A stretch of 64,000 nucleotides of DNA from positions 3,482,501-3,546,500 of the forward strand of contig NZ_CP103057.1 in assembly GCF_025231525.1 (NCBI RefSeq), given 5' to 3'. Below, piece by piece: positions 1 through 14,598 of this stretch. Every line of letters begins with the position of its first letter. The stretch's first letter is position 1. The translations under genes were made by a program, and so were the position numbers. Under the pieces are notes generated by a model. It searched no databases, was not told the origin of the DNA, and was given only the letters and a program-made list of their open reading frames with translations. The stretch comes from Sphingomonas endolithica. GTDB taxonomy: Bacteria; Pseudomonadota; Alphaproteobacteria; Sphingomonadales; Sphingomonadaceae.

Positions 1-299
1 GCGACATCGGCATAGCCATAGCCCTTCTTGACCAGGATCTGCCCGTCCTTGACCACCACGATCTGCGCGCCGGCGATCTTGCCTGCCTTCAGCGCACCAG
101 GGAAATAGCCGTCGAGCCAGGCACCGAGATCGGCCGCGGTCAGTGCCGGCGTGGTCGATCCGGAGACCGGTGCTTCCGTCCCCGGCGCGGGGGTGGCGGG
201 CGTGGCGGCGGCAGGCGCGGCCGGCGGCTGCACCTGCGAGGCGGCGGGGATCGCCAACAGCGCGCAGGCGAGCGCCGCCAGACCGAACTTCCTGATCAT
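1..299 (-). CDS. Serine hydrolase, class C beta-lactamase-like (N-terminal part)
   Basis: This is the N-terminal ~99 residues of a protein that continues past the left edge of the window. It begins with a Sec signal peptide (basic MIRK start, hydrophobic core, cut near ASQ) followed by a Pro/Ala-rich linker. It then enters the fold of beta-lactamase-related serine hydrolases (segments resembling ADLGAWLDGYFPGAL and IVVVKDGQILVKKGYGYADV). The catalytic SxxK would lie beyond the edge. It closely resembles the N-terminus of the serine hydrolase at 8708-10708, so the two are paralogues. It sits 76 bp after another serine hydrolase gene on the same strand and probably belongs to the same operon. 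It is likely periplasmic and acts on peptides or D-amino-acid amides; the substrate is unknown. Confidence 0.85.
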   Translation of the reverse strand, partial: MIRKFGLAALACALLAIPAASQVQPPAAPAAATPATPAPGTEAPVSGSTTPALTAADLGAWLDGYFPGALKAGKIAGAQIVVVKDGQILVKKGYGYADV

Positions 300-375: not shown

Positions 376-1947
376 TCATGGCCGTTCCGGTTCGAACGCG
401 AGATCGCCATAGTCGAAGCTGAAGTCGGCGAGCGGCGACACGGCCTGGGCGGTAATCCGCGAGACCTTGCCGTCCGCATCCAGCGCGAACGTCATATAGG
501 CGGGCTCGATCGCCGGATCGTCGAACCGCGCGATGAACGTGTCATATTGATAATGCTCGAGGCGCCCGCCCATGTTGGGCGTCGGCTGGAAGTTCACCCG
601 CAATCCGTCCGCGCCCGCCGCGACCGTGATCGGCCCGTACCAGCGATCGACATAGCGGCCGGCATAGCGGGCGAGGGGGAGGGAGGGACCGATCTTGGCC
701 GGTGTGCTCACTTTCTGCGAAACGGCCGCCTCTGCCGCGGCGATGCGCTGCGTGCGATATGCCTTGAACCGTGCCGGCCAATCCTGGTTCGGTAGCCCCA
801 GATAATGATCGAGCAGTTCGTACATGAGGCCATGGCGCGGCTCGGTCTCCTCGCTGGCGATCGTGATCGAGAAACCGACCTTCTTCTCGGGGATCAGCAC
901 CACGACCGTGGTCGCGCCGTATAGGCCGCCGGCATGCCACACGATCTTGGCGCCGTGATAGTCGCGGACTTCCCAGCCCAAGGCATAGGATTGGAACGTC
1001 GGCTGCGTGCCCGCGATCGGGCCGGGCAGGTCGGTGATCGGGATCGGCGTGACCGGCGTATGCATCTCGCGCGCCTGCGCCGCGCTGTAGACGCGCCCGC
1101 CGCCTGGCACGGCGCCGTCGGCGAGCTGTACCTGCAGCCAACGGGCCATGTCGTTGGCGCTGGCCGCGATCAGCCCGGCCGGGGCCGATGCCTGCGGCAG
1201 GTGATCGCGCTCGTCGATCAGCCGCATCTCGTTCGTCCCGCGCACCGAACCACCGAAGCGGGCATGCGGATGCGCGCGATTGGGATTGGCGAAGATCGCG
1301 GTGAAATCGTCCGCCGCATGAGTCATGCCGGCCGGCTTGAACACATGGTCGCGGACATAGCTTTCCCAGCTCTGCCCGCTCACCGCCTCGATCAACTGGC
1401 CGGCGACGATGTACAGCACATTGTCATAGGCATAGCCGCTGCGGAAACTGGTCGCCGGCTTGATGTAGCGCAGCCGGCGGACGATCTCCGCGCGCGAATA
1501 GCTGCCACGCGGAATGTACAGCAGGTCGCCCGCACCGAGCCCCAACCCGCTGCGATGTACCAGCAGGTCGCGCACCGTCATCTCGCGCGTCACCCAGGCA
1601 TCGTTCATCTGGAAACCGGGCAGGCGATCGATCACCTTGTCGTCCCAACCGAGCTTGCCGGCATCGACCAACGTCGCCAGCGCCGCGGTGGTCATCGCCT
1701 TGGCGGTCGATCCGATCATGAAGATCGTGTCGGCATCCACCTTCTCCGGTGCGCCGAGCTTGCGCACGCCATACCCCTTGGCGAGCACGACCTTGCCGTT
1801 CTCGACGATCGCCACCGCCATGCCGGGGGTGCCCGATGCGGTCCGCAGCGCCTCGATCCGGGCGTCGATCCCGACCGGCGGATCGGCGCGCGCGGGAAGG
1901 GCAATGGCGAGCAGCGGCAAAGCGGCAAGAACTGCCAGATTTTTCAT
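376..1947 (-). CDS. Secreted serine hydrolase, class C beta-lactamase family
   Basis: This 523-aa protein has an N-terminal signal peptide (about residues 1-22, ending ARA). It belongs to the class C beta-lactamase/penicillin-binding-protein-like family. The nucleophile motif STAK is at about 80-83, a Tyr-Asp-Asn motif is near 174-176, and a His-Ala-Gly-Gly motif lies near residue 345 where the third active-site element is expected. A C-terminal domain of about 130 residues follows the hydrolase core. The start at 1947 was chosen because its ATG overlaps the upstream permease stop (ATGA) and gives a clean signal peptide; the reading frame stays open much further upstream only because of GC bias. 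Family members include D-aminopeptidases, esterases and carboxypeptidases. Given the D-amino-acid enzymes in the operon, a periplasmic peptidase role is inferred, not shown. Confidence 0.9.
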   Translation of the reverse strand: MKNLAVLAALPLLAIALPARADPPVGIDARIEALRTASGTPGMAVAIVENGKVVLAKGYGVRKLGAPEKVDADTIFMIGSTAKAMTTAALATLVDAGKLGWDDKVIDRLPGFQMNDAWVTREMTVRDLLVHRSGLGLGAGDLLYIPRGSYSRAEIVRRLRYIKPATSFRSGYAYDNVLYIVAGQLIEAVSGQSWESYVRDHVFKPAGMTHAADDFTAIFANPNRAHPHARFGGSVRGTNEMRLIDERDHLPQASAPAGLIAASANDMARWLQVQLADGAVPGGGRVYSAAQAREMHTPVTPIPITDLPGPIAGTQPTFQSYALGWEVRDYHGAKIVWHAGGLYGATTVVVLIPEKKVGFSITIASEETEPRHGLMYELLDHYLGLPNQDWPARFKAYRTQRIAAAEAAVSQKVSTPAKIGPSLPLARYAGRYVDRWYGPITVAAGADGLRVNFQPTPNMGGRLEHYQYDTFIARFDDPAIEPAYMTFALDADGKVSRITAQAVSPLADFSFDYGDLAFEPERP

Positions 1948-3044
1948 AAGCTCTCCGGCTGAAGCCGCGCCGGGCGCAGGCGGCGGAACGCCACGATGGC
2001 CAGGAGCGGGAGGACGTAGATGAGGATCAGCGCCCAGGCGAGCGCGCGGTAGCCCGAGGCGATCAGCGTCACCAGCCCGACGCGTTCCGCAATCAACATG
2101 CACGGCACGAGCAGCGCAAGCGCCGCGCCGGCGCGCATGACGGGGGTCAGCGTCATGCCGCGGGTCCGCGCGACGCGCTCGTTGATCGCGTGCACCGCGC
2201 CGGTGCCGCTTTCCAGCAAGGCGGCGAAGATCATCACCTGGAACAGCACGTGGAAGGCGGGATGGCCGAGCCGTACCAGGATATAGTCGGACGGCAGCAC
2301 CGCGCCCGCGATCTCCGGCAGGAAGGCGGTCATGCTGACGAAGAACAGCAGCGCCGGGAGCATCGCCAGCGGCCCGGCGATCAGACCGGCGATCACGGCG
2401 TCGCTCCCTTTGCGGAAGTGTCGCGTCACCGGCAGCACGATCACCGCACCGATCACATTGTACCCGGCATAGGTGATGCCACCCATCGCCCAATCGGCCG
2501 AGGGCAGGGTGGCGAATGCCGTGGCAATCCGGTCGCCGACCCCGGCGAGCGCGAGCACGAAGAACAAGGCATAGGTCGCGTAGAGCAAGGCCGAGACCCA
2601 CACGAAGACGCGCTCGACGCTGGCATTGCCGAACGCGACGCACGCGATGATGCCGACCATCAACGCGAGCGTACCGACGATCGGCGGCAGCCCGAAGGTA
2701 GCGGCGGCGATCGCGCCCGCCGCGGCGCCGAACACGGCCAGGATCAACACGATGAACACGGCATAAGCCAGCTCGAACGCGACCCAGAAGCGGCCGAGCA
2801 GTGCCTGGAAGAAGTGGCGATAATCGCGCGCGCCGATCTTGTACGCGAAATGGAAGGTCACGGCCGCGACAACCGCCCAGATCAGGGTCGCGAGCAGCAT
2901 GGCGGCCAGCCCGCCCCACGGGCCCGCCGGCAGGAAGAATTCCGCGATCTCGCGTCCGGTAGCATAACCACCGCCGATGATGACGGCCTTGAACGCAAGG
3001 CCGGGGAGCAGGAAGCGCCTGAAGCGGTCGCGCGCGCTGCTCAT
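1944..3044 (-). CDS. YkvI-like integral membrane permease
   Basis: This 366-aa protein has about ten hydrophobic segments spread along its length and short polar loops, so it is an inner-membrane protein. The N-terminal stretch with GGGYATGREIAEFF and the helix with ESGTGAVHAINERVA resemble the YkvI family, which is distantly related to amino-acid/polyamine/organocation-type LeuT-fold transporters. The start at 3044 overlaps the stop of the DUF1611 gene by ATGA, and the stop overlaps the next hydrolase start, so translation is coupled on both sides. The substrate is unknown. From the operon I infer an amino acid or small peptide, perhaps the product of the neighbouring N-acetyl-D-glutamate enzymes. 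Confidence 0.8.
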   Translation of the reverse strand: MSSARDRFRRFLLPGLAFKAVIIGGGYATGREIAEFFLPAGPWGGLAAMLLATLIWAVVAAVTFHFAYKIGARDYRHFFQALLGRFWVAFELAYAVFIVLILAVFGAAAGAIAAATFGLPPIVGTLALMVGIIACVAFGNASVERVFVWVSALLYATYALFFVLALAGVGDRIATAFATLPSADWAMGGITYAGYNVIGAVIVLPVTRHFRKGSDAVIAGLIAGPLAMLPALLFFVSMTAFLPEIAGAVLPSDYILVRLGHPAFHVLFQVMIFAALLESGTGAVHAINERVARTRGMTLTPVMRAGAALALLVPCMLIAERVGLVTLIASGYRALAWALILIYVLPLLAIVAFRRLRPARLQPESL

Positions 3045-4090
3045 GCCTGGCACGCGTCGAGCAGGCGTTCGAACGCATCGCCGCCGCGGATCGGGTCGGC
3101 GGCGGGCAGGCCGAGCTGCGCGGCCGTCTCCTCGATCACCCGCCCGGCTGCTTCGGCTGTCATGTCGCCGGTGTTGAGACTGATGCCGGCACAGCGGATG
3201 GCGGGGTTGGTCAGGCGGCCGAGCATCACGGTCTGCTCGATCACCGCCTCGATCGTCGGCAGGCGAAAGCCGGGATGGCCTAGGATCGTCTCGCGCCCGG
3301 GCTGGTGGCACACGACGAACAGATCGGGTTGGCTGCCGTGCAGCAGCGCCAGGGAAACCGGTGCATAGGAGGGATGGAACAAAGATCCCTGGCCCTCGAC
3401 CACGTCGAGATGATCCGGCGCAGCAGCAGGGCTGAGCAATTCAACCGCCCCGGCGGCGAAATCGGCGATCACCGCATCGATGGCAATGCCTTGTCCGGCA
3501 AGCATGATCCCGGTCTGCCCGCTTGCGCGGAAGGTGGCGTCGACACCCCGCGCGGCCAGGCCGCGGGCGATGGCGAGCGCGGTATATTTCTTGCCGAGCG
3601 CGCAATCGGTGCCTACCGTCAGCAGGCGACGGCCGGAGCGTTTGAGCCCGCTTGCGACTGCCAGATCGGCCGGTGGCACGCGCAGATCGATCAGCTGCCG
3701 CCCCTGGCTGGCCGCAGCCTCGGCGAGTGGCGTGATGCTCGACAGCCGCGCATGCATGCCCGCGACGATATCCAGCCCGGCATCGATCGCGGCGAGCAGT
3801 TCGGGCATCCAGCTATCCGGGATGATCCCACCCGGATTGGCCACCCCGATGACCATGGCGCGCGCGCCCTTTGCCGCCGCTTCCGCGGGGCTGAGGCGAG
3901 GTAATCCGGTCGTGACCCTGGCGCTGGGCAAACTCCATTCGCCGAGGCAACGATCCGGCGCCCAATCGCGCAAGCCCAATGCCGTCTTGGCGAATCCCAT
4001 CTCCACCGTGTCGCCGAGAAACAGCAGATAAGGTGACGGCAATGCGTGGATCGCGCCCGTCGGTCGGTCGAGGGCAGTTACAACTGACAT
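3041..4090 (-). CDS. dgcN: DUF1611 protein, DgcN-like D-glutamate N-acetyltransferase
   Basis: This ~349-aa protein carries the DUF1611 signature: an N-terminal YLLFLGDT segment, and a central P-loop-like motif GTDCALGKKYTA typical of the C-terminal nucleotide-binding domain. DUF1611 proteins were characterised as DgcN, which acetylates D-glutamate so that the partner racemase DgcA can convert it to N-acetyl-L-glutamate. The same operon encodes an enolase-superfamily racemase at 7695-8708, which is the expected partner and raises confidence in the assignment. I chose the ATG at 4090, four bases after the TonB receptor stop; an upstream in-frame start at 4111 would overlap the receptor. The protein is cytoplasmic. 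Acetyl-donor use cannot be read from the sequence. Confidence 0.8.
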   Translation of the reverse strand: MSVVTALDRPTGAIHALPSPYLLFLGDTVEMGFAKTALGLRDWAPDRCLGEWSLPSARVTTGLPRLSPAEAAAKGARAMVIGVANPGGIIPDSWMPELLAAIDAGLDIVAGMHARLSSITPLAEAAASQGRQLIDLRVPPADLAVASGLKRSGRRLLTVGTDCALGKKYTALAIARGLAARGVDATFRASGQTGIMLAGQGIAIDAVIADFAAGAVELLSPAAAPDHLDVVEGQGSLFHPSYAPVSLALLHGSQPDLFVVCHQPGRETILGHPGFRLPTIEAVIEQTVMLGRLTNPAIRCAGISLNTGDMTAEAAGRVIEETAAQLGLPAADPIRGGDAFERLLDACQA

Positions 4091-4094
4091 CCGA

Positions 4095-6353
4095 TTAGAA
4101 GCCAGCACCAAGCGTCAGGCCGATCGTGCGTGGCCGGATGATGCCGGCCGCCGAGGCGCCGAACGGGATCGTGGGCACCGCAGGCAAGTCGAGCGAGGTC
4201 TTCCCCTCGCTATTGCCAAGGTTCCTGGCATAGACTTCGATCGAGAACTTGCCGAACAGCAGGCCGGCCCGCGCATCGGCCACCTGATAGCCGGCGATCG
4301 CCGGCTGCCGGCCGGTTGCCGCCACCAGCCCGGCGTCGAATGCTGCCGCCTGACGCGAGAGGAGCCGCAAGGAGGCGCCGACGTACGCCCTCGTCTCGCC
4401 TGCCAGCGCCCATTCGTACTGCGTATCGGCGCTGATGCTGTATTTTGGAACATAGGGTAGCCGGTCGCCATCGAAGCCGCCTGAGTTCGCCGGGGTGTCG
4501 TCCTTCAGGCGCGCGATGGTGTAGGCACCGTTGATCGATGTCGTGAACCCTGGGGTCGGCCGCAGCGTAGTGGTGAACTCGAAGCCTTCGCTCTTCGCCT
4601 TGCCGCCGTTGAAATTGCCACCATAGGGAATGTCGTTCGCCAGCGTCTGGCCGAACACCTGGATGTCCTTCCAGTCGACATGGAAGGCGGCGACATCGAT
4701 CGAGAAGCTGCGGTCGCTGGTCTGCGCCTTCACCCCGATTTCGTAGCTGAGCACGGTATCCGAATCGAACGACCGAAACTCAACCGGCGCGCCGGGGGCG
4801 AGGACGTTCGGGCCGCCCGGACGGAAGCCCTTGGCGACACGCGCGTAGAGCGAGGCATTGTCACCGAACTTGACCTTGGGCGCCACCGAATAGGTGAACA
4901 CGCCCTCGCTCGACCGCGCGGTCGGGAGCGCGAGCGGGCCACCCGCAAGCAGGCCGTCACCGGACTGGCTCGCGCGCTGCTTGTTGTGGCTGTAGCGGCC
5001 GCCGAAATCCACGTCGAAGCGTGGGCCGAGATGGACCGTGGCGTTGGCGAAGCCGGCGATCTCGCGGTAGCGCGAGGGCACCTGGGCGATGCCGAGCACC
5101 GGCAGCCCGGCGATCGGTGTCGTCGTGCCCGGCGTGACGGCGGTAAAGACCTGATCGATCAGGCCTCTCTCTCGCGTGTAGAAGCCACCGACCACCCACT
5201 CGAAGCGGTCGTTCGACGGGGATTGCAGCCGTACCTCCTGCGTGAACCGCTTCACCTGCGTCGTTTGCCCCTGGAAGAACTCGTTGGGGCCGATCACGTC
5301 GACCAGTTGCGGGCTGAAGAAATAGGTCAGATCGGAGCGGAAATCCTGCTTGAGCGTGCTGTAGCTGCTCGCCGAGACAAGGCTGGCAAATCCGAAATCG
5401 TAATTGATGACGCCGCTATACACGCGGTAGCGCACCTTGCTCGCGTTGGGCACGAACTGCGATTGGGTTGGGCGCCCATACAGCGTGCGTCCGGTCAACG
5501 GCTCCGCATCCACGGTATCCGGGGCGTCTACATCCAGGTTCTGGACATAGGCGGAAAGCTGGACCGAAAAGTCGGTCGTCGGCTGAAACAGCAGTGACCC
5601 GCGCCCGCCATAGCTTTTCGAGCTGTTGATGTTCCGCTCGACGTCCGCGCCGTCGGTGCCGATGGAATCGATGAAGCCGCCGATGTCGCGGTAGAAACCA
5701 GATGCGCGCACAGCGAGCGTGTCGCCCAGCGGCAGATTGACCACCGCGCTGCCCAAGTAGGATTCATTGCCACCCTTTGTCGTCTCGACGCTGGCCCGGC
5801 CGCGTACCTCGATCTTGCTGGTGTCGGGCTTGTTGGTGACGAATTTCAGGATGCCGCCCAGTGCATTGGCGCCGTAGAAAGTGCCCTGCGGCCCGCGCAG
5901 GACTTCGATCCGTGCCACATCGAACGTGTCGAAATCACCGGCCAGGATGCCGCCATTGACGAGGCCGGTCGAGGATCCGAAGATCGTCTCGTCCTGATAG
6001 ACCGCGACGGTTGAGGCGACGCCGCCGGTGTTGACACCGCGCAGCACCAGTCTCCCGAACCCCGGAGATGTCTGGTTGAGCTGCAGGCCGGGAACTAGCT
6101 TCAGGTAATCCTTGAAGTTGGTCGCCTGCTGGCGCTCCAGCGACTCGCCGCTGATGACAGAGACGGACTGCGGTACGTCGATCAGCAATTGTTCGCGCTT
6201 TTGCGCGGTGACGATGATGTCGCTCTGATGGTTCGGTTCGGTGGTAGCTTGCTCCACCTCGTCTTGCGATACGGTCTGGGCGGTTGCCGCATTGGCCATC
6301 ATCACCGCTACGATCGCGCTGGATATTGCTAGCGCCTGCCGAATTGCCGTCAT
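4095..6353 (-). CDS. TonB-dependent outer-membrane receptor
   Basis: This 752-aa protein has a signal peptide (MTAIRQ start, cut near ATAQT). Next comes a plug domain beginning with SDIIVTAQKREQLLIDVPQSVSV and including the ARIEVLRGPQGTFYGANALGG stretch typical of TonB plugs. A beta-barrel follows, ending in the hydrophobic/aromatic pattern LTLGAGF. Length and layout match sphingomonad receptors often annotated as siderophore-type, but the operon partners suggest uptake of peptides or amino-acid derivatives. The start at 6353 gives the signal peptide; the frame runs open 126 bp further upstream without a better start. It lies 55 bp after the POT transporter gene, so outer- and inner-membrane uptake are encoded together. 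Confidence 0.92.
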   Translation of the reverse strand: MTAIRQALAISSAIVAVMMANAATAQTVSQDEVEQATTEPNHQSDIIVTAQKREQLLIDVPQSVSVISGESLERQQATNFKDYLKLVPGLQLNQTSPGFGRLVLRGVNTGGVASTVAVYQDETIFGSSTGLVNGGILAGDFDTFDVARIEVLRGPQGTFYGANALGGILKFVTNKPDTSKIEVRGRASVETTKGGNESYLGSAVVNLPLGDTLAVRASGFYRDIGGFIDSIGTDGADVERNINSSKSYGGRGSLLFQPTTDFSVQLSAYVQNLDVDAPDTVDAEPLTGRTLYGRPTQSQFVPNASKVRYRVYSGVINYDFGFASLVSASSYSTLKQDFRSDLTYFFSPQLVDVIGPNEFFQGQTTQVKRFTQEVRLQSPSNDRFEWVVGGFYTRERGLIDQVFTAVTPGTTTPIAGLPVLGIAQVPSRYREIAGFANATVHLGPRFDVDFGGRYSHNKQRASQSGDGLLAGGPLALPTARSSEGVFTYSVAPKVKFGDNASLYARVAKGFRPGGPNVLAPGAPVEFRSFDSDTVLSYEIGVKAQTSDRSFSIDVAAFHVDWKDIQVFGQTLANDIPYGGNFNGGKAKSEGFEFTTTLRPTPGFTTSINGAYTIARLKDDTPANSGGFDGDRLPYVPKYSISADTQYEWALAGETRAYVGASLRLLSRQAAAFDAGLVAATGRQPAIAGYQVADARAGLLFGKFSIEVYARNLGNSEGKTSLDLPAVPTIPFGASAAGIIRPRTIGLTLGAGF

Positions 6354-6408
6354 CGAAGCTCTCCCCGCTTTGCCGATCTGCCAGACTATTGTCCTGATCA
6401 GAGAAGTG

Positions 6409-7698
6409 TCAACCTGTTTCGGATAGCTTTTCAGTAGCTGAGCTAGTGTGTTCGATGAGCAACAGCATGGCCGCGGCAAGACCAGCGATCAGTGCCAGCA
6501 GCACGAAGAAGCCACTATGTGTCGTTCGGCTCCACAGGGTCCCGACAAGGCCCGCCGCGATGCTGCCCGCGAAGCTCGCCAGGAACCAGGCCGCGACCGT
6601 GGTGGCGCCCAACCCCTTGGGTGCCAGCCGTGCGAACAGCCCGAGGCCGGTCGGCAGGATGTGCAACTCTCCCAGCGTCAGGATGACGAAGAACAGCACC
6701 AGCCACAGCCAGTGCGCGGGCCCGCCGATCGACTCCACCCCCGCCAGCATCAGATAGGCCGCGGCGACGATCGCCGCGCCCAGCGCCATGCGGCGTGCGG
6801 GGCGTTCCACCGCGCCTGCTGCCGTGCGTCGCTGCCACCAGGCAAGCAGGGGCGGCGTCATCGCCATCACCAGCAACGGGTTGAGCGACTGGAACCAGGT
6901 CATCGGAATGATCGCGCTGCCGACGTGACGGTCGACCCCGACATCCGCCCACAACGCCAGCGTGTTGCCGACCTGTTCGTAGGCGCCGCGGAAGACGGTG
7001 ACCGACAGCGCGATCGCGAGCAATGTCAGCGCGGTCTTGCGCGGGAAGCGCAGTCGCGGTGCAGCGCTGCGCGCGATCGGCTGGCGCGGGAACTGTTTCG
7101 GGGACTGGCTCGGCAGATAGCGCTGGCCCCAGATGTAAAAGGCAAGGCCGCCGAGCATGCCGATCCCGGCCGCGCCGAAGCCCCAATGCCAGCCGTACAA
7201 TTCGCCAAGCGTCCCACAGATCAACGGCGCCAGGAACCCGCCGATGTTCACCCCGACATAATAGACGTTGTAGGCCGATCCGGCGCGGGCGTCGCCGGGC
7301 GCATAGAGGTCACCGATCTGGCTAGGCAGGCTGGGCAGGAACAGGCCGTTGCCGAGCGCGATCGTCACCAGCGCGGGATAGAATAACGGCTCGAACGCCA
7401 TCATGAAGTGCCCGGCCGCCATCACCGATCCGCCGATCAGGATTGCATTGCGCTTGCCGAGGAAACGGTCGGCGATGACGCCGCCGACGATCGGGGTGAA
7501 ATAGGCGCAGGCGGTATAGGCGCCGTAGACGAGCGACGCAGATTCCTGCGGCATCATCAACTGCTTGGTCATGTAATAGACCAGCAGCGCGCGCATGCCG
7601 TAATAAGAGAATTGCTCCCACATATTGGTGAGGAACAGGACGGTCAGGCCGCGCGGGTGGCCGAACCAGGTCGGCTCGGCCGTAATGCCCGGGGTCAT
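6409..7698 (-). CDS. POT/PTR-family peptide MFS transporter
   Basis: This 429-aa inner-membrane protein has about 12 hydrophobic segments. The N-terminus contains MWEQFSYYGMRALLVYYM, matching the POT signature ExxERFxYYG with Gln in place of Arg, and GGVIADRFLGKRNAILIGG matches the loop after helix 2. POT transporters couple di- and tripeptide uptake to proton import. The start at 7698 overlaps the DgcA-like stop (ATGA). It is probably the inner-membrane step for peptides brought in by the TonB receptor encoded 55 bp downstream. It is slightly shorter than the ~480-500 aa usual for bacterial POTs. Substrate selectivity cannot be told from sequence. Confidence 0.9.
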   Translation of the reverse strand: MTPGITAEPTWFGHPRGLTVLFLTNMWEQFSYYGMRALLVYYMTKQLMMPQESASLVYGAYTACAYFTPIVGGVIADRFLGKRNAILIGGSVMAAGHFMMAFEPLFYPALVTIALGNGLFLPSLPSQIGDLYAPGDARAGSAYNVYYVGVNIGGFLAPLICGTLGELYGWHWGFGAAGIGMLGGLAFYIWGQRYLPSQSPKQFPRQPIARSAAPRLRFPRKTALTLLAIALSVTVFRGAYEQVGNTLALWADVGVDRHVGSAIIPMTWFQSLNPLLVMAMTPPLLAWWQRRTAAGAVERPARRMALGAAIVAAAYLMLAGVESIGGPAHWLWLVLFFVILTLGELHILPTGLGLFARLAPKGLGATTVAAWFLASFAGSIAAGLVGTLWSRTTHSGFFVLLALIAGLAAAMLLLIEHTSSATEKLSETG

Positions 7699-8708
7699 GC
7701 CGCGGTCGCCATGCCCGATCCCCAGACCTCCGGCCCGGCGTAAAGCGTGCCATCGGCATAGACGACGCTGGGCGTGTGATCTTGGGCGAGGAAGGTCGGC
7801 CCATCGAGATCGACGAGGTCGGCGATCTGCCCGAGCACGAAACCGGGCGCGGTGGCGAGACTCGTGCCGATCATCGTGCCGACCATCACGCCCAGCCCCA
7901 GCCGTCGTGCTTCGGCCGCCATCAGCAGCCCTTCGGTCAGGCCGCCGCATTTATCGAGCTTGATGTTGACCACATCGAACCGGCCCTTGGCATCAGCCAG
8001 GTCGGCGAGCGACAACAGGCTTTCGTCGCCCGCGATCGGGATGGCCGAACGGTAACCGTCGAGCTCCGCCTCGCGGCCGCGGGCGAGCGGTTGTTCGAGC
8101 AGTGACACGTTATGCGTGACGAGCCCGGCAACGAGCGCGTCGAGATCGGCGCGGGCAAAGCCCTGGTTGCCGTCCACGCCCAGCCAGACGTCGGGCCGCA
8201 CCTGGCGGATCGCGGCGACTCGCGCCAGGTCCAGCTCCAGCTCGCCCGTCAGTTTCACCTTGAGCGACTTTGCACCGACATAGCCGCGGGCCATTGCCGC
8301 CATCGCCTCGGGCGTATCGGCGCTGACCGTGAAGGTGGTGACGATCGGCGGGGGCGGGGATGCCAAGCCGGCCAGCGCCCAGACCGGCTGACCCGCCCGC
8401 GCCGCCTCGAACTCCCACAGGGCCGCGTCGACGGCATTGCGCGCGCCGCCGGGGGGCAGGATGGCACGCAACTCCTCGCGCGTCGGCCCGGCTTCGATGG
8501 CGTCGCGAGTGCGGTCGATCTCACTGCGCATATGCGCCAGATCGTCGCCGAGATAATAAGCGCCGGCGCCTTCCCCGCGCCCGCGATGCACCCCGTCGTC
8601 GAGCGTGACGACCAGCACATCGGCGGATTCGAACACATAGCCCGAGATGCGGAACGGCTGGGCGAGGCGGAGCGACTGCGTCGTGACGCTGAGCTGCAGG
8701 CGCGACAT
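7695..8708 (-). CDS. dgcA: Enolase-superfamily racemase, DgcA or dipeptide epimerase type
   Basis: This 337-aa protein belongs to the muconate-lactonising/dipeptide-epimerase branch of the enolase superfamily. The catalytic KxK pair is at about Lys150/Lys152, metal ligands at Asp179 (VDGNQ), Glu205 (LLEQP) and Asp228/Glu229 (GDES), and the second catalytic Lys at about 253 in the NIKLDKCGG motif. All key residues are present. Two activities fit this subgroup: L-Ala-D/L-Glu epimerase, or N-acetyl-D-glutamate racemase (DgcA). The DUF1611/DgcN-like gene in the same operon favours DgcA, but the sequence cannot decide. The start at 8708 overlaps the upstream serine hydrolase stop as TGATG. The enzyme is cytoplasmic. 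Confidence 0.82.
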   Translation of the reverse strand: MSRLQLSVTTQSLRLAQPFRISGYVFESADVLVVTLDDGVHRGRGEGAGAYYLGDDLAHMRSEIDRTRDAIEAGPTREELRAILPPGGARNAVDAALWEFEAARAGQPVWALAGLASPPPPIVTTFTVSADTPEAMAAMARGYVGAKSLKVKLTGELELDLARVAAIRQVRPDVWLGVDGNQGFARADLDALVAGLVTHNVSLLEQPLARGREAELDGYRSAIPIAGDESLLSLADLADAKGRFDVVNIKLDKCGGLTEGLLMAAEARRLGLGVMVGTMIGTSLATAPGFVLGQIADLVDLDGPTFLAQDHTPSVVYADGTLYAGPEVWGSGMATAA

Positions 8709-10708
8709 CAGTAGTTCACCGTCATCGTGAGCAGGCTGTAGGTCGAGGCGACGTACAGCACGATCACCGTCGCCAGCAGCACGAGCACGCTCCACACCTT
8801 GCGTGTCCAGCGGCGACCGTCGCGCCAGGTCAGCCACGCGTTCCACGCCGCGATGCCGACGGCCCCGACGAACACGATCGCACCCAGGATCTGGATCGAC
8901 CACAGCCACAGGTCGGCACTGGCCGTCATCGTGCTGATATCGCCGAACAGGACGGTGATCAGCGTCGCCCAGCCGGCGAGCACCGCCAGCACCAGGCCGG
9001 CCATGATGCGCGTCGCGCGGTAGGCCTTCAGCGAAGGACCCGAAGCGGCGATCGGCGCACGGTAACGGCGGCGGACGTACCAGCTGGCCGGCCAGTACAG
9101 CAATGTCAGCAACAGTACCGCTAGGCTAGCGTACAGCGCCGGCAGCAGCCACCCGGCCGATCGCGCCGCGGGCACGCGGTCATAGACCATGAAGGGCGAT
9201 ATCGTGTCGAAGCTCCAGCGCACCGGCTTGCCGTCCACCACCTTGGCGGCGAGGCGATCATGCCCGTTGCGGTCGCGCCACACGAACGGGGCGATCTCGT
9301 CCCATTGCTGCGCGGCACCGTTCGCGCCTCGCAGCGAAGGGACGACCAGATTGCCCTTGTCGTCGACGCTGACCTCGACCTGCCCTACCAGATTGAGGAT
9401 GTTGATGAAGTTGGACACCGACCGCCGGCTGACTTCCCAATGACCGACCATCAGCCGGGCATGCTCGGCGGCGGTCTTGGCATCGACGCGTCCGTCGCGG
9501 ACGGTGGATGGGAAGTAGCGGTCGGCGAAATCCTGAAACAATTGCCCACGCACGACATGTGCCGCGCCCTCGCGCCCCGCGCTGTTGAACGAGACGTAGA
9601 AGCCGACATGTTCGTTCATGAACAGGTGCAGCGAGGTATGGAATTCGTTTGTGTCGCCGAGATGCGCGATGACCTTGCGGCCGTTAATGTTGGTCTCGAA
9701 GAAACCGAGCTCCATGCGGTTGAGCGGCGGGATCAGCGACATCGGGTTGACGCGGTCGAGCGGGCTATCGTGCATCATTGCCGCCGTCTCGGGCTTCAGG
9801 ATGCCGCGACCTTGTTCGAGATGCGCGATCATGAAGCGCGCCATGTCCAGCCCTGAGGAGGACAGGCCGCCCGCCGGACCCGGCCCGACGAACTCGAACC
9901 CCTTGGCCGGCAGCGAGGCACGCTCGTACCCGGTCGCCGAATCGCCGCGCAGCTGTTTGGGCAACGGCTGGCGGAAACTCGAATTGCGCATGTTCAGCGG
10001 CGCGAAGATGCGCTGTTCGACATAATCGTCGAACGGCATGCCCGAGACCCGCTGCACGATATAGGCGGCCAGCGCGGTGGCCCAGTTGGAGTAATCGGGC
10101 GTGGTGCCGGCATCGAAGATCCGCGTCGGCGTCCACGTCTTGAGATAGGCCTCCAGTGGCATGTTGATCTTGGGATCGTAGAAGATGATGTTCTTCAACA
10201 CCTCCTCGAAGCCGCCGGTATGGGTCATGATCTGGCGCAGCGTAACGGGCTTGCCGTTCCGCGCCGGTATCTTGAAGTCGATATAGGTGTTCACATCGCG
10301 ATCGAGATCGAGCTTGCCCGCTTCGACCTGCTGCATCACCGCGGTCCAGGTGACGAGCTTGGACGTCGAGCCCGGGCGGAACAGGGTGCGCGCCGGATCG
10401 ACCGGCTGGCGCTTGGCGACATTGGCATAGCCGTAACCGCGCGCAGCAATGACCTGCCCATCCTTGACCACGGTGACGACCGCGCCGGCGATATCGCCGT
10501 TATGCAGCGCATAAGGCATGAAGCCATCAAGCCAGGCGTTCACGTCGGCGGCGGTGAGCGCACGGGTGCCCGCAGGAGCGGGCGTGGGCGGCGTCGGTGC
10601 GGTAATGGTCGTGGACGGCGTCAGCGGCAGCCGTGGCTGCGGCCCCTGCGCCACCGCCATGCTGCCGAACAACGCCATCGCTGTCGCGATCAGTTTTCCT
10701 ACCCGCAT
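8708..10708 (-). CDS. Serine hydrolase with C-terminal membrane segments
   Basis: This 666-aa protein starts at 10708, preceded by a good ribosome-binding site (AGGGGAAG) and followed by a signal peptide ending in AVAQ. After a Pro/Thr-rich linker comes a class C beta-lactamase-like domain: STSK at about 114-117, a Tyr-Ser-Asn motif in PDYSNWATA, and a His-Leu-Gly motif near HLGDTNEFH. A DUF3471-like beta domain may follow. The last ~170 residues contain four hydrophobic helices, so the catalytic domain is probably held at the periplasmic face of the membrane. It is the first gene of the minus-strand operon and is divergent from the XRE-cupin regulator. It resembles the partial hydrolase at 1-299. 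A D-amino-acid-specific peptidase or amidase role is inferred. Confidence 0.88.
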   Translation of the reverse strand: MRVGKLIATAMALFGSMAVAQGPQPRLPLTPSTTITAPTPPTPAPAGTRALTAADVNAWLDGFMPYALHNGDIAGAVVTVVKDGQVIAARGYGYANVAKRQPVDPARTLFRPGSTSKLVTWTAVMQQVEAGKLDLDRDVNTYIDFKIPARNGKPVTLRQIMTHTGGFEEVLKNIIFYDPKINMPLEAYLKTWTPTRIFDAGTTPDYSNWATALAAYIVQRVSGMPFDDYVEQRIFAPLNMRNSSFRQPLPKQLRGDSATGYERASLPAKGFEFVGPGPAGGLSSSGLDMARFMIAHLEQGRGILKPETAAMMHDSPLDRVNPMSLIPPLNRMELGFFETNINGRKVIAHLGDTNEFHTSLHLFMNEHVGFYVSFNSAGREGAAHVVRGQLFQDFADRYFPSTVRDGRVDAKTAAEHARLMVGHWEVSRRSVSNFINILNLVGQVEVSVDDKGNLVVPSLRGANGAAQQWDEIAPFVWRDRNGHDRLAAKVVDGKPVRWSFDTISPFMVYDRVPAARSAGWLLPALYASLAVLLLTLLYWPASWYVRRRYRAPIAASGPSLKAYRATRIMAGLVLAVLAGWATLITVLFGDISTMTASADLWLWSIQILGAIVFVGAVGIAAWNAWLTWRDGRRWTRKVWSVLVLLATVIVLYVASTYSLLTMTVNY

Positions 10709-10779
10709 CGATCTTCCCCTCTCAGCCATTGCCAGCCGTCAGATCTTCTATAAAATGGTTCAGCTGATCTGATCGGGAC

Positions 10780-11523
10780 ATGATTATCCGGATTGGAGAA
10801 TTGGTCAATGCAGTTGGAAGGATAATCGTCTTGTCATCGCCGCCTACCCTAGGCGCCCTGCTACGCGGCCTGCGATCGCGTGAGGGTTGGACCCTGAAGG
10901 AGATGAGCGCCAAGAGCGGCATCCCGGTCTCGACCTTGTCCAAGATCGAGCATGATCGGCTCACGCTGACCTATGACAAATTGCAGACGCTCGCGGTGCG
11001 GCTGGGCCTGCGCCTGGCCGATCTTTTCGCGGAAACCAAGGATGAGGCGGTCCAGCCGATCACCGCGCGGCGGAGCCTGGGTGATGTCGCGCGATCGGTC
11101 CGGGTCGAGACGCCCAATTACGATTATTATTATCTCTGCACGGAGTTGCGTCGCAAGCGCATGATTCCGGTCGTCACCAAGATCCGCGCACGCTCGGCCG
11201 AGCAGTTCGGCGAACTGGTGCGGCATAGCGGCGAGGAATTCATCTATGTGCTGAGCGGCAAGGTGGTGGTGCAGACCGAATTCTACGATCCCGTCACATT
11301 GGGGCCGGGCGAGGTGCTCTATATCGATTCCAACATGGGCCACGCCTATCTCGCCGCGGAGGATTGCGAGGAAGCCGAAGTGCTCGCCGTGATGTCGAGT
11401 GCGGAAGAAGAATTGATGGAATCCCTGCTGACGATCCATGAGGAGCAACGCCAAGTGGCCAAAGCCGTGAATGAGAATGCCCCACCCGTGCTCCCCCGCC
11501 GCCGCGCGGTGCGTGGTCAATGA
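10780..11523 (+). CDS. XRE-family regulator with C-terminal cupin domain
   Basis: This protein of up to 247 aa has an N-terminal helix-turn-helix (TLGALLRGLRSREGW through IPVSTLSKIEHDRLTLTYDKL) and a C-terminal cupin barrel (HSGEEFIYVLSGKVVV, LGPGEVLYIDSNMGHAYL). Such regulators sense small molecules, often amino acids or amines, through the cupin. It is divergent from the hydrolase-racemase-transporter operon and overlaps the dipeptidase start, so it probably controls both. The ATG at 10780 is the longest start, but a TTG at 10831 has a better ribosome site (GAAGGA nine bases upstream) and begins just before the conserved HTH, so it may be the true start. A GATTATCC/GGATAATC inverted repeat lies in this segment. 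Confidence 0.88.
   Translation: MIIRIGELVNAVGRIIVLSSPPTLGALLRGLRSREGWTLKEMSAKSGIPVSTLSKIEHDRLTLTYDKLQTLAVRLGLRLADLFAETKDEAVQPITARRSLGDVARSVRVETPNYDYYYLCTELRRKRMIPVVTKIRARSAEQFGELVRHSGEEFIYVLSGKVVVQTEFYDPVTLGPGEVLYIDSNMGHAYLAAEDCEEAEVLAVMSSAEEELMESLLTIHEEQRQVAKAVNENAPPVLPRRRAVRGQ
10782..10827. promoter_or_regulatory. Inverted repeat in the divergent regulator/operon region
   Basis: GATTATCC at 10782-10789 is mirrored by GGATAATC at 10820-10827. The pair lies between the divergent serine hydrolase operon and the likely TTG start of the XRE-cupin gene, so it is a candidate autoregulatory operator. Assignment to the regulator is inference from position. Confidence 0.4.
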
Positions 11524-12767
11524 GGCGGCTCCTGGTCCTGCTGGCGACATCGGCGCTGGTCGTTGCCCCGGCCGCGTCGGCAAAGAGCGATGACTATGCC
11601 GCCCGCGTGGCGCGCGTGCTGCGTGCCACGCCGCTGATCGACGGGCATAACGACTGGCCCGAGGCACTGCGCGAACGAGAGGGCGAGGCGCGCTGGACGA
11701 CGAACCTCAACGACCTGTCCGGCCGCCCGGAGCGCTACAACACCGATATCGCGCGGTTGCGCAAAGGCATGGTCGGCGGGCAATTCTGGTCGGTCTGGGT
11801 GTCGGCGGATCTGCCGGGCAAGGAGCAGGTCGAACAGACGCTGGAACAGATCGATCTCGTGAAATCGATCGTCGCGCGCTATCCGCAGGTCTTCGCGCTG
11901 GCGCGGACCGCGGACGATGTCGTCCGGGCGCATGCCTCGGGCCGGATCGCATCGATGATCGGGGTCGAGGGTGGCGGGCAGATCGATGGCAATCTCTCGG
12001 TCCTGCGCTCCTATGCCGCGCTCGGCGCCGGTTATCTGACGCTCACCCATTCCCGCACGATCGAATGGGCGGATTCCGCCACCGACGATCCCAAGCATAA
12101 GGGCATGACCGATTTCGGCCGCAAGGTGGTGCTGGAACTCAACCGGCTCGGCGTATTGGTCGATCTCAGCCATGTCAGCGAAACGACGATGCGCGACGCG
12201 CTGGCGGTGACCAAGGCCCCGGTGATCTTTTCGCATTCCAGTGCACGGGCGCTCGACGATCATCCGCGCAACGTCTCCGATGCCGTGCTGAAACTGGTGC
12301 GGGACAATGGCGGCGTGGTGATGGTCAATTACGCGCCACCCTACGTCTCGGACGCGTATCGTCACTGGTCGGCGGATTCGGCGGCGGAGAAGACGCGGCT
12401 CAATGCGCCGCCGTTCGGCGGGCTGGATATCGGGCAGCCCGACAAGGCGGCGGCCGATTATGCTGCCTGGCTCAAGGCAAATCCGGCGCCGCGCGTGACG
12501 CTGGCGCAAGTGGCCGATCATATCGAGCATATCGCCAAGGTGGCGGGGGTCGATCATGTCGGTCTCGGTTCCGACTTCGACGGGGTAGGGGACACGCTGC
12601 CCGATGGCCTGCAGGATGTCGCGACCTATCCCGACCTGCTCGCCGAACTGATGCGGCGCGGCTGGAGCGACGGCGATGTCGCGAAACTGGCCGGCGGCAA
12701 CGTGCTGCGCGTGATGCGCGCGGCGGAACAGGTGAAGGCACGGATGGCCGCGGTCGGCACGAAGTAG
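11520..12767 (+). CDS. Secreted M19 membrane-dipeptidase family protein
   Basis: This 415-aa protein starts with a signal peptide (MRRLLVLLATSALVV, cut near ASA). The metal-site motifs of renal-dipeptidase-type (M19) enzymes follow: DGHND at 41-45, the bridging Glu in VEGGG near 150, and His residues in LSHVSE and SHSSARAL, with GSDFDG near the C-terminus. These enzymes hydrolyse dipeptides, including ones with a D-residue at the C-terminal position. The length is normal. Its ATG overlaps the regulator stop (ATGA), so it is co-translated with the XRE-cupin gene. In the context of this locus it probably releases free D- or L-amino acids from dipeptides in the periplasm. Confidence 0.92.
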   Translation: MRRLLVLLATSALVVAPAASAKSDDYAARVARVLRATPLIDGHNDWPEALREREGEARWTTNLNDLSGRPERYNTDIARLRKGMVGGQFWSVWVSADLPGKEQVEQTLEQIDLVKSIVARYPQVFALARTADDVVRAHASGRIASMIGVEGGGQIDGNLSVLRSYAALGAGYLTLTHSRTIEWADSATDDPKHKGMTDFGRKVVLELNRLGVLVDLSHVSETTMRDALAVTKAPVIFSHSSARALDDHPRNVSDAVLKLVRDNGGVVMVNYAPPYVSDAYRHWSADSAAEKTRLNAPPFGGLDIGQPDKAAADYAAWLKANPAPRVTLAQVADHIEHIAKVAGVDHVGLGSDFDGVGDTLPDGLQDVATYPDLLAELMRRGWSDGDVAKLAGGNVLRVMRAAEQVKARMAAVGTK

Positions 12768-12947: not shown

Positions 12948-13409
12948 TCAGATCGGCAGCTCGTGGGTCGATTTGATCTCTGACAGCGCAACCGTCGAAG
13001 TGATTTCCTGAATACCGGCGAGCTTGCTCAATTTGTCGAAGAAGAAGCGTTCATACGCATCGATGTCGCGCGCCACGATGCGCAGCATGAAATCGGTCTG
13101 GCCCATCAGCACATAGGCATCCAGCACCTCGGGAAAGGCGCGGATCGCGTTGCTGAACTCGTCGAGATTGGCGCGGCCATGCGCGTTGAGGCGGACTTGC
13201 GCAAAGATATGGGCATTGAGCCCGACCTTGCGGCGATCGACCATCGCCACCCGACCGCGAATGATCCCGTCGCGTTCCAGCCGATCGACACGGCGCCAGC
13301 ACGGCGACGGCGATAGCCCGACTTTGGCCGCGAGCTCGGCCATGGTTTGATTCCCGTCGCGCTGCAATTCGCGAAGGATCTTCTGCTCGAAAGGATCAAG
13401 ATCGGTCAT
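12948..13409 (-). CDS. Lrp/AsnC-family transcriptional regulator
   Basis: This 153-aa protein has the standard two-part layout. An N-terminal winged HTH (DPFEQKILRELQRDGNQTMAELAAKVGLSPSPCWRRVDRLE) is followed by an alpha/beta ligand-binding RAM domain (VLDAYVLMGQTDFMLRIVARD). Length is typical. These proteins respond to amino acids and often control a divergent catabolic gene. Here the divergent gene is an amino-acid dehydrogenase, so the pair is probably a regulator and its target. A GGGTCA/TGACCC palindrome lies between them. Confidence 0.93.
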   Translation of the reverse strand: MTDLDPFEQKILRELQRDGNQTMAELAAKVGLSPSPCWRRVDRLERDGIIRGRVAMVDRRKVGLNAHIFAQVRLNAHGRANLDEFSNAIRAFPEVLDAYVLMGQTDFMLRIVARDIDAYERFFFDKLSKLAGIQEITSTVALSEIKSTHELPI

Positions 13410-13536: not shown

Positions 13537-14598
13537 ATGGTCTTAAGCACGATATCGGCACCACCGCCCGAGCAGGTGCTTGTCTTCGACGAGGCCAGAG
13601 ACGGCTTTGACGGCGTCATCGTCCTGCATTCCACTGCTCTCGGGCCGGCCGCCGGCGGGTGTCGCTTGTGGCATTATGGCGACCGGACGGCGATGACCGC
13701 CGATGCCTGTCGCCTGGCGCAAGGCATGACCTACAAGAATGCGCTGGCCGGGCTGCCGATGGGCGGCGGCAAGGCCGTGCTGCAACGACCGTCGGATCCG
13801 GCGCTGCGCCAGGCGGGGTTCAGCGCGTTCGGGCGCGCCGTGCGCGCGCTCGACGGCGCGTACGTCACCGCGGAAGATGTCGGCACCAGCGTGGCGGACA
13901 TGAACGTCGTCGCCCGCGAAACGCACTATGTCGCCGGCCTGCCGCCACGGGCGGGCAGGGTCGGCGGCGATCCGTCGCCCGCTACCGCACGCGGCGTCTT
14001 CCTGGCCATGCAGCTCGCGGTCCGTCGCCGGCTGGAGCGTGAGCTTGGCGATTGCACCGTGGCGATCCAGGGTGTCGGCCATGTCGGTGCCGCGCTTGCC
14101 GCCATGCTCCACGCCGCCGGCGCGAAGCTGATCATTGCCGACCTGGACTCGTCGGCGGCGGCGCGTGTCGCGGTGGCGCTGGGTGCGGAGATCGCGTCGG
14201 CGGACGCGATCCTGCGGTGCAAGGCCGACGTGCTGGCGCCCTGCGCGTTGGGCGGGGTGCTGAATGCACACACGATCGGCAGGCTGTCGGCGAAGGTCGT
14301 GTGTGGCGCAGCCAACAATCAACTGGCCGATCCGGCCGCGGCGGGGATGCTCGCGGACCGCGGCATCCTCTATGCGCCGGATTTCGCGGTGAATGCCGGC
14401 GGCATCATCAATGTCGCGGCGGAATATTTCGGCTGGTCTCCTGCCGCTGCGGCGGAACGCGTCGAGCAGACGCCGATGCGGCTCAACCGCGTGTTCGCTC
14501 TGGCCGAGCAGCAAGGCCTGTCGACCCACGACGCGGCGGAAGCGCTGGCGCAGCAATTGATCGTCGCCGGCAGCGCGGAAAGTCGATCGGCCGCGTGA
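13537..14598 (+). CDS. Leu/Phe/Val/Glu-type amino-acid dehydrogenase
   Basis: This 353-aa protein belongs to the Glu/Leu/Phe/Val dehydrogenase family, which oxidatively deaminates amino acids with NAD. The N-terminal domain shows the glycine-rich LGPAAGGCR segment, Lys67 (MTYKNA) and the catalytic Lys79 in GLPMGGGKA; the spacing matches leucine dehydrogenase. The C-terminal Rossmann domain has GVGHVGAALA and the NAGGIINVAAEY segment. Length (~350) matches leucine and phenylalanine dehydrogenases rather than the longer glutamate enzymes. The gene overlaps a small ACT-like gene by GTGA, and the two are probably translated together. Branched-chain or aromatic substrate preference cannot be decided here. 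Confidence 0.9.
   Translation: MVLSTISAPPPEQVLVFDEARDGFDGVIVLHSTALGPAAGGCRLWHYGDRTAMTADACRLAQGMTYKNALAGLPMGGGKAVLQRPSDPALRQAGFSAFGRAVRALDGAYVTAEDVGTSVADMNVVARETHYVAGLPPRAGRVGGDPSPATARGVFLAMQLAVRRRLERELGDCTVAIQGVGHVGAALAAMLHAAGAKLIIADLDSSAAARVAVALGAEIASADAILRCKADVLAPCALGGVLNAHTIGRLSAKVVCGAANNQLADPAAAGMLADRGILYAPDFAVNAGGIINVAAEYFGWSPAAAAERVEQTPMRLNRVFALAEQQGLSTHDAAEALAQQLIVAGSAESRSAA

Follow-up and report, generated by a model that had tools for sequence, protein, structure and literature searches.

Why should relatives of DgcN and DgcA sit among transporters and peptidases? The window analysed here is a stretch of 64,000 nucleotides, positions 3482501-3546500 of the one-contig, 4.09-Mb genome of Sphingomonas endolithica. 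At 376-10729 on the minus strand it carries an operon with the gene order S12 hydrolase, DgcA-like racemase, POT transporter, TonB receptor, DgcN-like protein, permease, S12 hydrolase; genes for an XRE-cupin regulator and an M19 dipeptidase diverge from it. The DgcN-DgcA pair is reportedly a D-glutamate pathway (the work is said to be that of Yu et al. 2023 in ISME J), and an initial annotation of this DNA saw in the locus a complete route from external D-amino-acid peptides, maybe muropeptides, to L-glutamate. Our reading, to which we give a probability of about one half, is that the locus forms the centre of a regulon for the use of D-amino-acid-containing peptides, with a divergent N-acetylation/racemisation pair that probably acts on neutral residues. 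The operon itself is real, conserved and coupled, and most likely it serves D-peptide use. Its genes, those of the divergent unit and the predicted operator between them are as follows.

376..1947, minus strand: S12 hydrolase with DUF3471, 523 amino acids, probably exported (PF00144 217.6 bits, PF11954 88.8 bits)
1944..3044, minus strand: permease with an APC/LeuT-type amino-acid transporter fold, 366 amino acids, without a Pfam family
3041..4090, minus strand: DgcN-like DUF1611 protein of the operon-type clade (PF07755 228 bits; alternative starts 4042 and 4111)
4095..6353, minus strand: TonB-dependent outer-membrane receptor (PF00593 119 bits, PF07715 73 bits)
6409..7698, minus strand: POT/PTR2 di-/tripeptide:H+ symporter (PF00854 156 and TIGR00924 259.7 bits, the latter above its cut-off of 130.2)
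7695..8708, minus strand: DgcA-like enolase-superfamily racemase of the operon-type clade, 337 amino acids (NF042940 338.8 bits)
8708..10729, minus strand: long S12 hydrolase, 673 amino acids, start maybe 10708 (PF00144 195 bits; four predicted C-terminal transmembrane helices)
10771..10794, minus strand: imperfect palindrome AATCCGGA-N8-TCCCGATC, a predicted operator overlapping the -10 of a promoter-like site (TTGACC at 10808)
10780..11523, plus strand: XRE-family regulator with a C-terminal cupin (PF07883 and helix-turn-helix models; start candidates 10780, 10801 and 10831)
11520..12767, plus strand: M19 dipeptidase of the renal-dipeptidase type, probably exported (PF01244 366.7 bits, cut-off 26)

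All the genes that the initial annotation had named are present, and the regulator and M19 genes are divergent as it had said; Pfam and NCBIfam scans recover every one except the permease, which was recognised by its open frame and fold. The long open reading frames (ORFs) are over-extended (in ORF 376-3078 the first 377 codons are a false frame across the permease), and the likely starts are 1947, 3044, 4090, 6353, 7698, 8708 and 10729 or 10708. The true start of the regulator is probably downstream of 10780, because the operator covers that position. Stop and start overlap at four junctions of the operon: S12/DgcA (8708), DgcA/POT (7695-7698), DgcN/permease (3041-3044) and permease/S12 (1944-1947); the regulator and M19 genes share a 4-base overlap. 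The earlier description of one coupled operon stands, but the dgcN-like and racemase genes are not neighbours, the POT and TonB genes lying between them.

Is this arrangement peculiar to one genome? A search of 297 genomes of the order found the DgcN model in 103 (58 over the cut-off) and the DgcA model in 180 (114 over the cut-off), and gave 39 usable stretches around DgcN and 20 around racemases without a near DgcN; a genome-contig scan (best 80 of 589 candidates) added 79 named loci. Removal of 3 duplicates and 28 rows with short flanks from the resulting 125 DgcN rows left 94 counted loci, of which 54 are operon loci with a racemase and 17 are tandem dgcN-dgcA loci, two further groups holding 12 and 11. 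As the loci were chosen by DgcN similarity, the counts are not population frequencies. Among the 54 operon loci the long S12 gene occurs in 52, the permease in 51, the XRE-cupin gene in 49, the second S12 in 46, the TonB receptor in 44, M19 in 38 and POT in 23. POT without a strong same-strand M19 gene is found in 18 and such an M19 without POT in 17, while 5 have both and 14 neither. The 17 tandem loci have any S12 in 1, the permease in 1, a TonB receptor in 2 and the XRE-cupin gene in none, so that the grouping of these genes goes beyond chance. The order S12-DgcA-POT-TonB-DgcN-permease-S12 recurs in 13 loci, the window included (and L013 being the same as L075), and 12 have M19 in the POT slot, both figures among the 14 commonest orders; the gene order is therefore not unique to this genome. 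Hosts include Sphingomonas, Novosphingobium, Sphingobium, Sphingopyxis, Duganella, Luteimonas, Xanthomonas, Pseudoxanthomonas, Povalibacter and Rudaea, among others.

Three loci (L078, L079 and L095) have two DgcN-containing sets side by side, which suggests local duplication and swapping of cluster parts. In 20 of the 41 named racemase loci there is a probably exported amidohydrolase (signal judged by eye; e.g. L118:1040-2737), and 4 of 5 tried pass PF07969, a type that we take to belong to the N-acyl-D-amino-acid deacylase superfamily. Another amidohydrolase occurs in L081, L091, L095 and L104; that of L095 is nearest to Xaa-Pro dipeptidase NF051886 (364 bits, cut-off 500).

Does the pair act on D-glutamate? 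The reading that the operon scavenges muropeptides or other D-glutamate peptides, its DgcN and DgcA turning D-glutamate into N-acetyl-L-glutamate, is favoured by the fact that NF041892 and NF042940 are by far the best named models for the two proteins. The DgcN-like protein has both the N- and C-terminal DUF1611 domains (PF17396, PF07755) and a P-loop GTDCxxGK at 160. However, it scores 435.4 bits with NF041892, under the curated cut-off of 480 (its two paralogs in the same genome score 463 and 443, the canonical control L048 539), and the racemase scores 338.8 bits with NF042940, under the cut-off of 400 (471 for L048).

The trees separate both proteins from the tandem pairs. In the racemase tree (115 rows) all 68 window-type rows, picked by phmmer at more than 300 bits to the window racemase, lie beyond one branch, which has support 100/99 and recurs in 100% of the 200 bootstrap trees. 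On its other side are YcjG, 4gfi, all 20 lone racemases and 23 of the 25 dgcN-adjacent racemases, a set that includes L146, whose racemase is about 8 kb from its DgcN. The other two, of L051 and L147, are sisters of the window-type clade. The DgcN tree (72 of 125 rows; 19 rows labelled 'other' were left out, and the tandem set includes the reassigned L106_5347) likewise splits 47 operon-type from 25 tandem proteins with support 99/97; DgcN rows without a near racemase are scattered within the operon-type side. The closest relative is Sphingomonas sp. SRS2, with 82% identity for the racemase over 336 columns and 83% for DgcN over 333. The grouping with dipeptide epimerases that would have refuted the initial annotation is not seen, the racemase standing apart from E. 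coli YcjG; nor does it join the DgcA of tandem pairs. Of the lone racemases without a near DgcN (L052-L071), 17 of 20 form one clade; they keep R24, mostly have Y53 and show GEGTPIYY-like loops in place of PYxRYGE, and their scores are near or over the DgcA cut-off.

Both proteins also differ in residues. Positions are given in YcjG numbering for the racemase and ORF numbering for DgcN, and the reference was a set of 12 canonical-type racemases, 7 from genomes over both cut-offs (L043-L049) and 5 that are named, unscored and share their side of the DgcN tree. Window-type racemases have G for R24 (0.99 of the 68 rows), F for K/R27, Y for R53 and Q for E182; in place of C278, 0.91 of rows have N and the window's own has T. 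R24 is the residue that Klenchin et al. 2004 reportedly saw binding the glutamate side chain. They keep KxK, KLDK and DLDGP, and the window racemase has LKVKL. On the DgcN side the window protein has A51 and L277 where canonical-type proteins have R51 (11 of 12) and R277 (12 of 12); position 277 lies four residues past the invariant R273 of the CHxPxR motif, and 80 positions are conserved across all three groups compared. When the two enzymes are tabulated together, all 63 operon rows (2 of them duplicates) lack R277, R24 and R53. Among 24 tandem pairs, the 11 with R277 all have R24 and R53; a further 12 are without R277 and carry Y53, 9 of them keeping R24 and 3 having G there; and one, L150, has A277 with R24 and R53. 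The signature thus tracks a single deep split that has intermediates, and not many independent events.

It is of note that tandem pairs from betaproteobacteria and Gemmatimonadota (L131, L135-L137, L139 and L141) have a third signature, DgcN C51/E277, with R24 in 5 of the 6 racemases, together with Y53 and N278; the one DgcN of this set that was scored (L139, 442 bits) is under the curated cut-off. A C-terminal DxD, tried as a marker of dipeptide versus N-acyl substrates, proved useless, being present in the printed rows of all groups. The available part of one review has nothing on the role of R24, and the terms are absent from a plant AEE paper.

Both reference systems act on glutamate: YcjG according to the part of PMC5808125 that was available, and the canonical DgcN-DgcA pathway according to the available parts of PMC10845958 and PMC12363236. 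Because both window enzymes lack the arginines kept in these glutamate-type enzymes, their natural substrate is probably not D-glutamate but a neutral residue (aliphatic, aromatic or amide). Moreover, 10 of the 26 genomes from which operon-type loci were taken have in addition a DgcN and a DgcA side by side that both exceed the curated cut-offs, which suggests that the two kinds of locus have different jobs. In short, the locus resembles the known pathway in that the same two families are found together with catalytic-type residues conserved, and differs from it in sub-cut-off scores, non-adjacency, separate clades, absent arginines and the setting in a transport/peptidase operon. A Rhodobacteraceae strain with the same Enzyme Commission pair and growth on peptidoglycan (PMC11747546, the part available) speaks for the D-glutamate reading. 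With the scores, the clades, the loss of R24, K/R27, R53, R51 and R277 and the co-occurring curated pairs against it, we consider that reading unlikely. The muropeptide substrate fares no better, nothing found pointing specifically there. What survives of the proposed route from external D-peptides is the combination of uptake, peptide and amino-acid transport, D-peptide-type hydrolases and a DgcN/DgcA-like pair; its end, a D-glutamate pair feeding L-glutamate, is not supported.

The S. endolithica genome has three DgcN genes and one strong DgcA, the next match to the DgcA model scoring 22.7 bits. In the other two DgcN clusters (L004 and L005) an M19 gene lies directly upstream of DgcN, with S12 genes downstream and a divergent TonB gene; neither has a racemase, and one also has S15 and M61 peptidases. 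The racemase is thus present in trans. When 12 genomes, corresponding to 12 of 38 such rows, with an operon-type DgcN but no same-strand racemase within 8 kb were searched, 11 held a window-type racemase of at least 383 bits elsewhere, while in the remaining one (G265) the best scored 265 bits; L083 has a racemase on the opposite strand.

This distribution bears on the alternative in which the racemase epimerises imported L-X-D-Y dipeptides and the DgcN-like protein has a separate role. Like the L-Ala-D/L-Glu epimerase YcjG (1jpd), the window racemase is an enolase-superfamily protein with KxK and DLDGP; its gene overlaps that for POT, and the enolase family is known to include dipeptide epimerases with aromatic specificities (PMC5808125, again in part). 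Yet it scores 216.2 bits with the YcjG model NF011708 against a cut-off of 343, lacks R24, R27 and R53 and falls in another part of the tree, and DLDGP does not discriminate since canonical DgcA keeps it too. In 31 of the 54 operon loci POT is missing and the racemase still accompanies DgcN, and in the 11 genomes just mentioned a DgcN without a near racemase still has one elsewhere. We therefore hold an epimerase role decidedly unlikely.

Are the three clusters regulated together? A site resembling AATCAGGATCATTATGTCCTGATT, as a rule preceded by a TTGACA-like box, matched at least 16 of 24 positions in 36 of 42 XRE/S12 promoters versus 3 of 840 single-base shuffles, the consensus being derived from the same 42 rows, several of them near-copies. 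A weight matrix was built from 26 typed sites (one sequence twice), the window site among them but not those of the other two clusters. It gives the window operator, as a training-set site, 33.0, and its best hits in L004 (18.9) and in L005 (a weak 13.6) both lie inside the M19/TonB gap. A shuffled null reached at most 3.4-7.1 and is too lenient in comparison with real control sequence: the density in 54 control loci (716 kb) is 49 per Mb for sites at 12 bits, 22 for those at 13.6 and 8 for those at 18.9, with a top score of 25.5.

Seventeen loci with few or no near racemases were then scanned. In L004, L005, L092, L102, L106, L111, L117 and L121 all 16 sites of at least 12 bits lie a short way upstream of the first genes of M19, DgcN or TonB type, some of them inside ORF calls that look over-extended. 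Strong sites precede DgcN in L078 (28.1) and L095 (37.1), and L078 has others elsewhere. A single site of 13.2 is present in L090, the sites of L127 are elsewhere, and 5 of the 17 (L016, L028, L083, L125 and L132) have no site of at least 12 bits. A degenerate operator pattern, composed after the first two sites had been seen, has two exact matches in the genome, the window and L004; the L005 site is among 12 matches with two mismatches, as against 4 for the reversed pattern. A box-plus-half-site pattern has two genome matches, both in the L004 gap and one per direction, against 1 for the reversed control; it misses the window site, whose gap is 11 where 7-10 is allowed. Because a palindromic operator is common to the XRE promoter and both other clusters, the sequences suggest that the three DgcN clusters form one regulon using one racemase. 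A separate identical palindrome-like 24-mer occurs twice in the genome, at C1:1963635 (L165) and C1:2486754 (L166), each time beside an FAD-enzyme-like frame and away from the DgcN clusters.

The S12 proteins pass the PF00144 cut-off and have SxxK and YxN motifs. In the long one these are STSK at 121 and YSN at 213, with HLG at 356; the 376..1947 protein has SxxK, YDN and HAG motifs and an N-terminal hydrophobic stretch. The predicted model of the long S12 protein matches in fold D-amino acid amidase, the Lip3 DL-peptidase of Paenibacillus (9sn1) and other S12 enzymes. Lip3, a DL-peptidase said to have been reported by Zhang et al. 2026, shares the S12 domain and a C-terminal part and is the only one of the 50 matches listed whose range reaches the transmembrane helices, but its identity to the long S12 protein is 17-19%, it comes from a Gram-positive source, and no link to a racemisation pair was seen. 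The C-terminal helices also raised the idea of a ClbP-type D-asparagine prodrug peptidase, an S12 peptidase with a C-terminal membrane domain. That idea was rejected: the ClbP type has three transmembrane helices as against four predicted here, and both signature residues (S188 and E92; PMC9889268, in the part available) differ, the long S12 protein having N where S/T is needed after Y-x (YSN) and R118 instead of E three residues before the catalytic serine, positions that were placed by motif and not by structural alignment. ClbP and related prodrug peptidases were not named among the 50-60 matches listed, a listing that is not diagnostic.

The likeness to Lip3 might indicate that the operon's main role is to protect against D-residue peptide antibiotics or lipopeptides, the S12 proteins destroying them and the cytosolic enzymes doing no more than clear the D-amino acids released; Lip3 is described as lipopeptide-induced and as cutting DL bonds (PMC13188892, the part available). 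The TonB receptor, POT, permease and catabolic pair point instead to import and use, and the long S12 protein is without the D-asparagine prodrug-peptidase signature, which makes a mainly defensive role quite unlikely. The permease 1944-3044 has no Pfam match, even at E values up to 10, and we call it YkvI-like; its family is without a Pfam model, yet 22 members align well.

On our preferred reading, the use of D-residue peptides, the TonB receptor would take the peptide across the outer membrane, and exported or membrane-anchored S12 hydrolases would cut it at D-residues. Short products might enter via POT or be split by the exported M19 enzyme, and free amino acids would enter via the APC-fold permease. 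In the cytoplasm the DgcN-like protein would N-acetylate the D-amino acid and the DgcA-like racemase convert the N-acetyl-D to the N-acetyl-L form, for deacetylation and catabolism. The XRE-cupin protein may control the operon and, via the same operator, the two racemase-less DgcN/M19/S12/TonB clusters, which would use the operon's racemase in trans.

The M19 protein has its HxD zinc motif as HND at 43. Its nearest solved relative by sequence, and a member of the renal dipeptidase (M19) comparison, is 3id7 (E=5e-106), which we take to be Sco3058. Another presumable likeness is to microcystin degradation (mlr), in which MlrB is an S12 protein and MlrD a POT protein, and which is a sphingomonad system with a D-glutamate peptide as substrate; MlrC (PF07364) has no match in the genome, nor did any control genome match. 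Further genes lie beyond those listed above.

1..299, minus strand: N-terminal part of a third, class C-like S12 hydrolase, 659 amino acids, with C-terminal transmembrane helices; the gene crosses the window's left edge
C1:3480820-3482799 of the genome (L006): the full gene of this third S12 hydrolase (PF00144 203.6 bits on an over-extended ORF)
12948-13409, minus strand: Lrp-type regulator, a possible associate
13537-14598, plus strand: Leu/Phe/Val-type amino-acid dehydrogenase, a possible associate (best named model Trp dehydrogenase ScyB, 288 bits, cut-off 600)

Two of the class C-like hydrolases thus lie inside the coordinates of the initial annotation, and the third crosses the window's left edge. 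A Leu/Phe/Trp-type dehydrogenase with an Lrp gene beside it is near 11 of 121 loci, the window included, in more than one arrangement, and near none of the 24 tandem loci; among the 11 are several from closely related Sphingopyxis. This proximity agrees with a shift to a neutral residue.

The surmise that the combination was undescribed agrees with our search, which met the DgcN-DgcA pair in papers on D-amino acids and no account of the operon in the open literature, a weak negative as most subscription papers lay outside its coverage. The two racemase-less DgcN/M19/S12/TonB clusters and the common operator in the same genome are new beyond the initial annotation. More tentatively, and we think somewhat doubtfully, the whole could be a D-peptide utilisation system laid out like polysaccharide utilisation loci, with one TonB/S12/M19/DgcN cluster per D-residue peptide (for example competitors' nonribosomal lipopeptides), one shared XRE-cupin sensor and racemase, and a DgcN/DgcA pair moved from glutamate to neutral D-amino acids.

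D-amino acids are regarded as slow-turnover matter, and we know of few routes for peptide-bound neutral ones. If our reading is true, N-acetylation/racemisation would extend beyond glutamate, and the locus would provide a widespread set of markers by which bacteria that feed on D-residue peptides could be traced. It would also urge caution in environmental surveys against naming such genes dgcN and dgcA and their hosts D-glutamate users, and would offer a testable connection with how lipopeptides used in biocontrol are turned over.

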